DNA of 64,000 nucleotides, from the NCBI RefSeq assembly GCF_000745775.1, contig NZ_KN050752.1, forward strand, positions 295,074 to 359,073, written 5' to 3'. Of the stretch, positions 19,496 to 25,245 are shown piece by piece. The DNA is from Flavobacterium sp. ASV13 (lineage in GTDB: Bacteria; Bacteroidota; Bacteroidia; Flavobacteriales; Flavobacteriaceae). A program made the position numbers and the translations under genes. The notes below the pieces were generated by a model. The model was not told the DNA's origin. It ran no database searches and was given only the letters and a program-made list of their open reading frames with translations. Position 1 is the first letter of the stretch. Each line of letters starts with the position of its first letter.

Positions 19496-19505
19496 TTACT
19501 TTTTA

Positions 19506-19630
19506 TTTAACCGCAAAGGACGCAAAGGTTTTTTTTCGCGATATCTAAATAAACACAAAGTTCGCAAAGCTTTGTGTTCATAAAAAGCTTTGCGAACCTT
19601 GCGTAATCATTTGCGAACTTTGCGGTTAAA
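19506..19630. repeat. Palindromic interspersed element, 125 bp
   Basis: Outer inverted arms TTTAACCGCAAAG (19506-19518) and CTTTGCGGTTAAA (19618-19630) match perfectly. A nested hairpin pairs AAAGTTCGCAAAGCTTT (19557-19573) with AAAAGCTTTGCGAACCTT (19583-19600). CGCAAAG or its complement recurs several times. The left end is shared with 15131-15148. It contains no gene and sits in an intergenic gap, which is typical of a MITE/REP-like element. Confidence 0.7.
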
Positions 19631-19643
19631 TTTTAAAAAGCAT

Positions 19644-22055: not shown

Positions 22056-24056
22056 ATGGCATTAGATTCAAAAATTCCAAATGGTCCTATAGCGGACAAA
22101 TGGACAAATTATAAAGATCATATTAATTTAGTAAACCCTGCTAACAAACGTAATTTAGATATTATCGTTGTTGGTACAGGTTTGGCTGGAGGTTCTGCGG
22201 CAGCTACTTTAGCTGAGTTAGGATATAACGTAAAAGCATTTTGCTTTCAAGATTCACCTCGTCGTGCGCACTCTATTGCAGCACAAGGTGGTATCAATGC
22301 AGCAAAAAACTATAAAGGTGATGGTGACTCAATTTACAGATTGTTTTATGACACTGTAAAAGGTGGTGATTACCGTGCTCGTGAGGCAAACGTTTATCGT
22401 TTGGCTGAAGTTTCTGGAAATATTATTGACCAGTGTGTGGCTCAAGGGGTGCCATTGGCTCGTGAATATGGCGGACTTTTAGATAACCGTTCTTTTGGAG
22501 GAACTTTGGTTTCTCGTACATTTTACGCACAAGGACAAACAGGACAGCAATTATTGTTAGGAGCTTATTCTGCAATGAACCGTCAGATTGGTCGTGGAAA
22601 AATCAAAATGTACAACCGTCACGAAATGCTTGACATTGTTATCGTGAACGGAAAAGCGAGAGGTATTATCGCTCGTGACTTAATCACAGGTAAAATAGAA
22701 AGACATTCTGCTCACGCGGTAGTAATTGGTTCTGGAGGATACGGAAACGTATTTTTCCTTTCAACAAATGCTATGGGAAGTAACGCAACAGCAGCTTGGA
22801 AAATTCATAAAAAAGGAGCGTTTTTCGCAAATCCTTGTTATACACAAATTCACCCAACATGTATTCCAGTTTCAGGAGATCACCAGTCTAAATTGACTTT
22901 GATGTCTGAGTCTTTGCGTAATGACGGTCGTATTTGGGTTCCTGCAAAATTAGAAGATGCTCAGGCAATTCGTGAAGGAAAGAAAAAAGCAACAGATTTA
23001 TCTGAAGAAGAAAGAGATTATTTCTTAGAAAGAAGATATCCTGCTTTTGGTAACTTAGTGCCTCGTGACGTTGCGTCTCGTGCGGCTAAAGAAAGATGTG
23101 ATGCTGGTTTTGGAGTTAACAAAACGGGTGAAGCAGTTTACTTGGATTTCGCAGCGGCAATTAAACGTTACGGAACTGAAGATGCTTATGTAAAAGGTTT
23201 AGATGATAAAGATGCTGCTTTGGTAACTAAATTAGGAGCTGCAATCGTGAAAAGTAAATACGGAAACTTATTCCAGATGTATTACAAAATCGTTGATGAG
23301 GATCCTTATACAACACCAATGATGATTTACCCTGCGGTTCACTACACAATGGGTGGAACTTGGGTTGATTATAACTTAATGACTACAATTCCTGGATGTT
23401 TCTCAATTGGAGAATCTAACTTCTCTGATCACGGAGCAAACAGACTTGGAGCTTCTGCTTTAATGCAAGGTTTAGCTGACGGATATTTTGTACTTCCTTA
23501 TACAATAGGAGATTATTTAGCTCCAGATATTAAAATGGGAGAAATTTCTACAGACTTACCAGAATTCGTTGAAGCTGAGAAAGCAGTTGTTGATCAAATA
23601 AATAAATTTATCAATAACAACGGTAAACATTCTGTAGATTATTTCCACAAAAAATTAGGAAAAATCATGTGGAATAAAGTAGGTATGGCTCGTAATGCTA
23701 AAGGTTTAACTGAAGCTATCGAAGAAATTGCTGCTTTACGTGAAGAGTTTTATAAAGATGTAAAAGTTCCTGGAAGTGCTTTCGAATTTAATCAGGAATT
23801 AGAAAAAGCAACTCGTGTTGCCGATTTCTTAGAATTAGGAGAATTGTTCGCGAAAGATGCTTTACACCGTAACGAATCTTGTGGTGGTCACTTCCGTGAG
23901 GAGTACCAAACAGAAGAAGGAGAAGCACTTCGTGATGATGATAACTTTGCATACGTTGCAGCTTGGGAATACAAAGGGAAACCAAGTGATGCAGTATTAC
24001 ACAAAGAACCGCTTAATTACGAAAACATTAAATTAGTTCAAAGAAGTTATAAATAA
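22056..24056 (+). CDS. sdhA: Succinate dehydrogenase / fumarate reductase flavoprotein subunit
   Basis: 666 residues. FAD-binding Rossmann motif [19 protein letters not shown] (about 36-54), the covalent-FAD region [12 protein letters not shown] (about 72-83), substrate-binding HPTCIPV, and the catalytic [13 protein letters not shown]. It oxidises succinate to fumarate in the TCA cycle and passes electrons to SdhB. The length and the di-haem anchor partner match the menaquinone-linked type. sdhB is separated from it by an inserted four-helix-bundle gene rather than following directly. Confidence 0.96.
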
Positions 24057-24058
24057 AA

Positions 24059-24480
24059 AAGTTAAGAGTTAAGGGTTATGAGTTTAAAGTCGTTCGAAGA
24101 TTTAGAGTGCTGGAAAGCAGCACGTGAATTAAGAATCTTTGTTTCTCAAAATATTCTTTCGAAATTTCCAATTGACGAAAAATATGCCTTAACTAGTCAG
24201 CTTAAACGATCTTCTAGATCTGTTAGTGATAATATTGCCGAAGGGTTTGGAAGATATCATTATCAAGAAAATATTCAATTCTGCAGAATTGCCCGAGGTT
24301 CTTTAACAGAATCTTTAAATCAGGTAATCACTGCTTTAGATGAGAACTATATTGAAGAAGATTTGTTGCAAAAATTTAGAGAAAGGTTTGAAAGAACCAA
24401 AGCAATATTAAATGGATATATAAATTATTTAGCTAGGACTAAAATGGAGTAGTAACCCTATGACGTTTAACTCTTAACTT
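24059..24480. mobile_element. Candidate IVS-like element: inverted 14-bp arms and heptamer repeats around a four-helix-bundle gene
   Basis: Perfect inverted arms AAGTTAAGAGTTAA (24059-24072) and TTAACTCTTAACTT (24467-24480) enclose the four-helix-bundle gene. Both flanks are tandem heptamers: GTTAAGA-GTTAAGG-GTTATGA-GTTTAAA on the left, and on the right, read on the minus strand, GTTATGG-GTTATAA-GTTAAGA-GTTAAAC. The start codon of the gene lies inside the left heptamers. The insert splits sdhA from sdhB without breaking either. The protein family is known from intervening sequences in 23S rRNA, whose ends also pair into a stem. That this copy moved as a unit is inference. Confidence 0.6.
24078..24452 (+). 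CDS. Four-helix bundle protein (23S rRNA intervening-sequence / S23 family)
   Basis: 124 residues with the family signature: FEDLECWKAARELR at the N-terminus, FPIDEKYALTSQLKRSSRSVSDNIAEGFGR (about 32-61) and CRIARGSLTES (about 71-81). The family (TIGR02436) forms pentameric four-helix bundles; its role is unclear, and relatives act as accessory proteins of diversity-generating retroelements. No template/variable repeat or reverse transcriptase is here. It sits between sdhA and sdhB in the same orientation, flanked by inverted heptamer repeats. Transcription of sdhB should read through it, since no terminator or promoter is evident inside. Confidence 0.92.
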   Translation: MSLKSFEDLECWKAARELRIFVSQNILSKFPIDEKYALTSQLKRSSRSVSDNIAEGFGRYHYQENIQFCRIARGSLTESLNQVITALDENYIEEDLLQKFRERFERTKAILNGYINYLARTKME

Positions 24481-24498
24481 ATAACCCATAACAAAATT

Positions 24499-25245
24499 AT
24501 GAAACTTACATTAAAAATATGGCGTCAAAAAAACGCTCAAGATAAAGGAGGGATTGTAGAATATCCTATCGATGGAATCGAACCAGATATGTCTTTCCTT
24601 GAAATGTTAGACGTTCTTAACGAAGGTTTAATCAATAAAGGAGAAGAACCAGTAGCATTTGATCACGATTGTCGTGAAGGAATCTGCGGGATGTGTTCTT
24701 TATTCATCAACGGAGAAGCACACGGACCAGACAGAGGTGTTACAACTTGTCAGTTGCACATGCGTATGTTTAAAGATGGTGATACAATTTTTATTGAGCC
24801 ATTTAGAGCAAAAGCTTTCCCGGTAATTAAAGATTTAGTTGTTGATAGAACTTCTTTTGACAGAATTCAACACGCTGGAGGATTTATCTCTGTAAATACT
24901 TCAGGAAATACAATTGATGCGAATACAATTCCAGTTAATAAAGACGACGCAGATAAATCATTTGATGCTGCTGCTTGTATTGGTTGTGGAGCTTGTGTTG
25001 CAACTTGTAAAAACTCTTCAGCAATGTTATTCGTTTCTGCAAAAGTTTCTCAATATGCATTATTGCCTCAAGGTAAAGTTGAAGCAACTGACCGTGTTTT
25101 AAACATGGTTCACCAAATGGATTTGGAAGGTTTTGGAAACTGTACAAATACTGGAGCTTGCGAAGTAGAATGTCCTAAAGGAATTTCTCTTGAAAATATT
25201 GCACGTATGAATCGTGAATATTTAGCAGCAAGCTTGAAAGGATAA
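24499..25245 (+). CDS. sdhB: Succinate dehydrogenase iron-sulfur subunit
   Basis: 248 residues. N-terminal ferredoxin domain with the 2Fe-2S ligands CREGICGMC (about 58-66) plus a cysteine in TTCQ, and a C-terminal domain with [11 protein letters not shown] (about 160-170) and [12 protein letters not shown] (about 215-226) for the 4Fe-4S and 3Fe-4S clusters. It carries electrons from SdhA to the cytochrome b anchor. Last gene of the operon, followed by a very strong terminator. Confidence 0.95.

Follow-up and report, generated by a model that had tools for sequence, protein, structure and literature searches.

The locus analyzed here lies within a 64,000-nucleotide stretch of DNA from Flavobacterium sp. 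ASV13 (hereafter designated the window) and raises the question of how a small gene enclosed by inverted heptamer repeats has come to stand between sdhA and sdhB, and to what those repeats belong. An earlier note, made from the letters of this DNA, had described perfect 14-bp inverted arms around a four-helix-bundle (4HB) gene, tandem heptamers of the GTTAAGA type on both sides, and a start codon forming part of the repeat. All three observations held (Table 1), the ATG (24078–24080) falling within the third left heptamer and the complete right heptamers, TCTTAAC-TTATAAC-CCATAAC, occupying 24472–24492. The 14-bp arms are nested in a 28-nt pair that is 79% complementary. A PF05635 gene is the sole open reading frame (ORF) of at least 60 residues inside the element, which thus contains no transposase gene, and no target-site duplication was recognized at its ends in a comparison of carriers with gene-less spacers, the latter not being clean empty sites. 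Among Rfam families, only a tRNA reached the gathering score in the 64-kb window, and the element therefore corresponds to no known RNA family.

Table 1 Positions of the sdhA|sdhB element, its parts and neighbors, and of array-flanked PF13366 genes (window numbering unless a locus or genome is given).
Feature	Position	Strand	Remarks
sdhA, left neighbor	22056–24056	+	
Whole element, the entire sdhA|sdhB spacer	24057–24498	+	In close relatives, a gene-less spacer of 94–95 bp stands exactly here instead
Left perfect 14-bp inverted arm, AAGTTAAGAGTTAA	24059–24072	+	Perfect complement at 24467–24480
Left array, four degenerate heptamers GTTAAGA GTTAAGG GTTATGA GTTTAAA	24061–24088	+	Overlaps the start codon
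S23/four-helix-bundle (4HB) gene, 124 aa	24078–24452	+	PF05635, TIGR02436, predicted structure; nearest structures 2gsc, 2rld, Avd 4dwl
Right array TTTAAC TCTTAAC TTATAAC CCATAAC	24466–24492	+	Complementary to the words on the left
Right perfect 14-bp inverted arm	24467–24480	+	Complement of AAGTTAAGAGTTAA
sdhB, right neighbor	24499–25245	+	
PF13366 genes between inverted arrays	L209:742–1146 (ASV13), G006:C10:74617–74967, L310–L339		Period 9–10

The protein encoded by the element is a member of the S23/IVP four-helix-bundle family, matching PF05635 with an E value of 1.1e-30 (106.4 bits; curated cut-off, 33.8) and TIGR02436, 'four helix bundle protein', with an E value of 4.5e-27 (94.4 bits; curated cut-off, 24). 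Its AlphaFold model (mean pLDDT, 95.1) consists of four helices (residues 10–29, 32–57, 62–88, and 94–121), to which the closest solved structure is 2gsc (TM 0.83–0.96), followed by 2rld and then by the Avd structure 4dwl (TM 0.76/0.88, probability 1.0, though with an E value of 0.1). The solved relatives 2gsc and 2rld comprise five chains each, and the title of the 2gsc paper, as cited in PMC10053308, refers to five four-helix bundles; the 4HB protein may likewise adopt a five-subunit ring form. An arm of five words, one for each subunit of such a ring, is ruled out, since the arrays range from about two to more than ten words and thus show no fixed word number per arm. Among the six near-identical 4HB genes, codon positions 1, 2, and 3 are 97.5, 98.8, and 92.0% identical, respectively, the first two values showing that the gene is under purifying selection. 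A PF05635 match was found in 60 of 61 Flavobacterium genomes (343 matches summed) and in 90 of the 118 Bacteroidota genomes searched, and a figure legend of PMC10910872 lists the family among CRISPR-linked genes.

As a means of checking its reading, the earlier note had proposed aligning the flanks of all copies in the genome. The ASV13 genome contains seven PF05635 copies, all of which lie between inverted low-complexity arrays with an arm score of at least 14, the threshold adopted for a match; inverted arrays are thus common to the seven, but the exact words of the sdh element are not, each of the six other copies having words of its own. From the 343 matches in the genus, 96 copies were examined (the seven of ASV13, 29 at loci given by search, and 60 fetched in table order, rows at contig edges being skipped), and 94 remained after two (L018 and L036) were lost at a contig edge. 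The flanks matched each other in 72 of these 94 copies and fell below the threshold in the other 22; in the whole set including the sdh-locus copies, 78 of 106 matched, versus 3.3% of cross-copy pairs. When intergenic bases only were considered, 49 of the 94 matched, compared with 0.21% of the 7968 pairs formed between different protein clusters. As a control, ORFs of ASV13 were given the same arm score, and 12 of 358 reached 14, among which were both 4HB copies of the contig as well as a GxxExxY and a RAYT-like gene; the corresponding numbers were 3 of 302 in G041, the only one of the 61 genus genomes without PF05635, and 11 of 346 in sister contigs. The feature noticed at the sdh locus is therefore real, but it is general to PF05635 genes and not a property of this locus alone.

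GTTAAGA, which the earlier note had taken as the type, is indeed present here but represents just one word class among many, and in some classes the period is 8; over 87 arm pairs the array period was 7 in 51, 8 in 27, 9 in 6, and 10 in 3. Among seven classes grouped by hand, five have fixed anchors (A and G at 0.81–1.00) beside free positions, those of the AGT class being T 0.98, A 0.96, A 0.97, and G 1.00, and the remaining two, TTAGACTTC and AGGTTCAA, gave weak logos. Arm polarity is fixed, the G-rich strand pointing inward in 62 of the 87 arm pairs versus the reverse in 2, with 23 mixed. An inward G-rich strand also prevailed in sdhA|sdhB spacers of 45–130 bp (28 versus 0 of 42) and in gene-less periodic hairpins (13 versus 3 of 20); for non-periodic hairpins the counts were 8 versus 17 of 35.

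Moreover, word similarity climbed with protein identity, even between different sites (Mantel, 0/1000), the mean word cosine being about −0.03 to −0.02 at most identities below 60%, 0.125 at 60–80% (65 pairs), and 0.417 above 80% (6 pairs). For 117 same-cluster pairs sharing no neighbor gene, word similarity was above all permutations (0/2000), and six of the seven protein clusters stood above background at unrelated sites, the exception being one large cluster (cluster 0), in which no word similarity between unrelated sites was found. A protein 68% identical to that of the window, encoded between nrdB- and nrdA-like genes (L228), is accompanied by GTTA words of the same kind. As copies at the same site diverge, the match between left arms of different species falls from 45 to 13 and that of cross-copy arm pairs from 19 to 9.5, whereas the arms within one copy stay at 16–19, indicating that the two arms change together. 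Collectively, these results show the inverted-array design and its generality in the sampled copies, the correspondence between word and protein, and the joint change of the arms; the words follow the protein subfamily, which means that the heptamers belong to the gene.

Hairpins built of such words also occur without a gene. In 464 kb of the ASV13 contig there are 18 gene-less hairpins with a period of 7 or 8 in both arms, and many of them use words of resident 4HB copies; there were three in 395 kb of G039, a genome with six PF05635 copies, and none in 400 kb of G041, a single control genome with about equal non-coding content. Hairpins of any kind numbered 76, 25, and 47 in ASV13, G039, and G041, respectively. 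The word pattern GTTTCARGTTTCARGTTTCA occurs 116 times in the ASV13 genome and its reversed control 0 times (in one other genome, G016, the control gave 9 matches). In G008, a hairpin of GTTTCAA words lies in frame inside a leuS-like gene (ORF of 974 versus 960 residues) and is absent from the same gene in ASV13 (L223:13480–13520), G015, and G006. The hairpin-free target already resembles the GTTTCAA word, which offers a lead for the mechanism. At another site (L222:14085–14245), ASV13 and G008 have a GTTTCAA hairpin and G015 a period-8 AAGGTGCTAAG hairpin, and G006 has a PF13366 gene with arms instead.

A strict dependence of gene-less words on a cognate gene in the same genome is rejected, and what the counts show is a tendency only. 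Of the 13 genomes with a gene of at least 69% identity, 8 had 10 or more words of the L003 class, as did 4 of the 48 others (Fisher, 1.5e-4); for the L002 class, 5 or more words were present in 7 of the 14 genomes with a gene of at least 66% identity and in 6 of the 47 others (Fisher, 0.006). Both tests ignore relatedness, use thresholds set after the counts were seen, and include the arms of gene copies in the counts. Words of the GTTTCAR type are plentiful in some genomes without the cognate gene, amounting to 136 in G057, 65 in G049, 30 in G006, and 19 in G042.

As to genomic position, 86 of the 94 copies are co-directional with both neighbors, across 32 sites, versus a baseline of 166 of 249 intergenic regions of at least 60 bp in the ASV13 contig. 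Partner genes separated by copies are groES|groEL, leuC|leuD, sufC|sufD, and gmk|nadD, the last being annotated likewise in F. columnare (PMC5524665), and elsewhere in the family copies lie between cysD and cysN and between two parts of a metH-like gene; apart from those of F. columnare, the flavobacterial gene names were read from translations. Five of 12 multi-copy sites harbor different protein clusters in different species. The element is co-directional within gene strings, and its expression is probably by read-through.

The same co-directionality would suit an element acting at the RNA level, the arms pairing in the sdh transcript and being cut by RNase III as in the intervening sequences (IVSs) of 23S rRNA, with the protein binding RNA or regulating its own translation. 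Indeed, the ends of the element pair in the predicted RNA fold, which is better than that of all 100 shuffles (z, −2.74), the start codon sits in a word, and the 23S IVS of Coxiella burnetii, carrying a gene of the same family, is excised by RNase III at its 28-bp stem (PMC4990558). The mismatches between arms, by contrast, comprise 95 that are G·U-capable, 135 of the A·C type, and 439 transversions; with no excess of wobble pairs and a difference in the wrong direction (95 versus 135; binomial, 0.01), selection of an RNA stem for pairing is weakened, an account of the arms by RNA pairing, as in one alternative of the earlier note, is not supported, and recognition as DNA is favored over that as RNA. 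Gene-less hairpins that stand between convergent genes (6 of 20) or, in one case, within a coding gene also speak against action in a transcript, and we consider this explanation unlikely.

The history of the sdhA|sdhB site was followed in 109 spacers of flavobacteria and relatives, which include near-identical species and are not independent (79 of the 80 named sdh loci were used, L116 being without sdhA). The spacers measured at most 12 bp in 42 cases, 13–44 bp in 11, 45–130 bp in 42, 131–400 bp in one, and more than 400 bp in 13; 12 of these 13 contain an HMM-detected 4HB frame and the other (L062) a broken one, and their words differ, being of the GTTA, AGCGAATAG, AGCCAAAAGG, and other kinds. 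The window-type element was found in 8 of 299 genus genomes, with 81–100% identity and always next to sdhA and sdhB. When the search was widened to the family, a relative of the window protein (E, 1e-22) turned up in 22 of 249 genomes, and sdhA and sdhB flanked 11 of the 23 loci. Presence of the gene at this spot in all flavobacteria, which the earlier note had named as speaking against mobility, is accordingly not what was found. In the closest relatives (SdhB, 98–99% identical), an unrelated hairpin of CGACTTT words takes the place of the element, and the swap is exact from the sdhA stop to the sdhB start. Clean empty sites with target duplications were sought by comparison with three sister contigs and in four alignments, which mostly revealed sites occupied by a different hairpin in each species.

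When a tree was built from the flanking genes, seven carriers lay intermingled with 14 gene-less species, a distribution that requires seven changes, at least four of them forced by well-supported branches, and a single origin, with the six near-identical carriers as one clade, was rejected (p-AU, 6.8e-6). At third codon positions these six carriers are 92.0% identical in the 4HB gene, 83.9% in the tail of sdhA, and 80.2% in sdhB, and the 4HB gene was the most alike of the three in 15 of 15 pairs, showing it to be younger than sdhA and sdhB. The presence of the element at sdhA|sdhB is thus sporadic and non-vertical; being sporadic, alternating, non-vertical, and younger than its neighbors, the element has been horizontally exchanged, and the earlier view of the unit as one that behaves as inserted or exchanged is borne out.

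Ordinary homologous recombination in sdhA and sdhB could bring about such an exchange while the element itself stays passive, and this remains the simplest route, although carriers resemble one another in their flanks no more than they resemble gene-less species, so that no recombination tract shows. On this route rests the idea that the spacers are owned by the host, their hairpins serving the sdh operon through differential mRNA stability, recombination swapping one spacer for another, and the 4HB gene traveling as a passenger. Such spacers would explain why gene-less hairpins of several word classes are found here (in 42 of the 109 spacers, those of 45–130 bp) and why the close relatives' hairpin shows 96.2% identity from one species to another, matching the likeness of the 4HB element, and recombination through conserved flanks needs nothing from the element itself. 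Yet the operon does without a hairpin wherever the spacer is 12 bp or shorter, the words follow the protein across unrelated sites, the flanks of the carriers lack a shared tract, and the 4HB gene is itself constrained, all of which makes host ownership decidedly improbable. Still less credible are slippage-prone simple repeats that flank small genes by chance and are kept palindromic by template switching, since, although one survey found heptanucleotide repeats to be the commonest long simple-repeat class in the majority of its genomes (Mrazek 2007, cited in PMC4679880), five of the seven word classes have fixed anchors beside free positions (the logos of the other two being weak), the words follow the protein with fixed polarity, and few ORFs possess such arms. 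With regard to the gene-less CGACTTT spacer, it is non-coding and 96.2% identical between seven species (L178, L179, L038–L040, L042, and L044), compared with about 80–84% at third positions of sdhA and sdhB in the six 4HB carriers, and is either constrained or recently spread.

The reading that we prefer, and hold with somewhat better than even confidence, is that of a very small, horizontally exchanged S23/4HB element that includes inverted arrays of degenerate 7-nt words; its protein probably recognizes the words at its own ends. Judging from the arm mismatches, recognition would occur chiefly on DNA. Presumably, the protein takes part in movement of the element, and the gene-less word hairpins may be related to it as non-autonomous or degenerated forms, somewhat as REP sequences are to RAYT. 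That the design, with different words for different protein versions, turns up at further sites and in further bacteria points to a tiny type of mobile element that has gone largely unnoticed. The design is real, holds generally within the sampled copies, and can be tested; by the rule of one word per protein, the function of PF05635 becomes directly accessible to a single binding experiment. If this reading is true, abundant intergenic heptamer repeats would be accounted for as well, and it would become visible how very small elements can take up positions between genes for subunits of essential complexes (sdhA|sdhB, groES|groEL, and sufC|sufD) with no evident harm.

Beyond the genus, 16 of 28 new loci from across the phylum, at least two of them from the same genus (L356 and L371), reached the arm threshold, versus 1.2% of cross pairs, with a period of 7 in 12, 8 in three, and 6 in one. 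On cyanobacterial plasmids, 9 of 12 loci did so, versus 6.8% (period 7 in seven and 8 in two), the 12 having been fetched out of 23 matching plasmid records that are not all cyanobacterial. Three of these 4HB genes with word arms (L340, L344, and L350) lie, as annotated, in CRISPR operons, twice at cas6|cas4 and once at cas10|cmr3-like. Matching inverted arrays were also found at 24 of 29 loci of GxxExxY/PDDEXK_3 genes (PF13366; 30 loci were given, L312 being at an edge), versus 8.1%, the best period among the 24 being 9 in 10 loci and 10 in nine. These genes share the inverted-array design in the same genomes, but they belong to an unrelated protein family, with a nuclease fold by its Pfam name, and their words have a period of 9–10, not 7–8. 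The window itself has an inverted pair, ATTTAACCGCAAAGGACGCAAA (19505–19526 and 19610–19631, 83 nt apart), with GCAAAG words like those around some PF13366 genes.

A broader reading, which we advance tentatively and rate somewhat below an even chance, is that there are cross-phylum hairpin elements with ends made of degenerate, fixed-length words, those of 7–8 nt being read by S23/4HB proteins and those of 9–10 nt by GxxExxY nucleases, each subfamily having its own word and a swarm of gene-less hairpins. If this is true, the S23 family would gain a function, and the heptanucleotide repeats found in Bacteroidota and Cyanobacteria would be explained as traces left by it.

Tandem intergenic heptanucleotide repeats are known in cyanobacteria as STRRs, and we propose that these are such arrays around S23 genes. 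TAACTGA heptamers, for which no mechanism of transfer is evident, are described in tandem between genes of Beggiatoaceae, Cyanobacteria, and Bacteroidetes but are reported as almost wholly direct, unlike the inverted arrays of the element (PMC4679880); the terms S23, four helix, and intervening sequence are absent from the main text of that paper. Among the titles and abstracts of the open-access papers searched, none was found to link PF05635 genes with such arrays. Avd of diversity-generating retroelements has the same fold (4dwl), and a resemblance between PF05635 and Avd has been published (PMC10053308), but the 4HB gene has no reverse transcriptase, template repeat, or variable repeat beside it, its neighbors being sdhA and sdhB. 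Dependence on a reverse transcriptase is rejected, PF00078 being found in 7 of 13 genomes and in none of G008, G053, G054, and G057, all rich in GTTTCAR words; the ASV13 genome has one PF00078 match, on another contig. From DNA transposons and insertion sequences the element differs in having no transposase gene and no recognized target duplication between carriers and gene-less spacers.

With the REP/RAYT system the element shares intergenic hairpins, some of which enclose a cognate protein gene, but the 4HB protein, encoded by the only ORF of the element (PF05635), is not an HUH/Y1 transposase, and the 4HB words are tandem, degenerate, of fixed length, and different between subfamilies. The 4HB protein is not known to have a catalytic domain, and no catalytic partner for it was found. 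ASV13 also possesses a gene (L208:17318–17869) that we take to be RAYT-like, between REP-like TTCCTGCAAGGTTTTCAAAACCTTGTAGG arms, as well as a family of REP-like hairpins, TTAAACTGGACTGAAGTCCAGCTCTACAA, without word periodicity (L209:15503–15605, L210:19839–19942, L211:498–605, and L222:12446–12552, on contig C6). The 23S rRNA IVS, which in C. burnetii is described as a selfish element of 428 nt whose ends form a stem of 28 bp (PMC4990558), resembles the present element in its single S23-family gene, length of about 430 bp, complementary ends, and sporadic occurrence. The present element, in contrast, lies between the protein genes sdhA and sdhB, not in 23S rRNA, its ends are tandem degenerate words, and gene-less hairpins in such words are dispersed in the genome. 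Collectively, the element works like an IVS combined with REP/RAYT, but by the tests run it is a member of neither.
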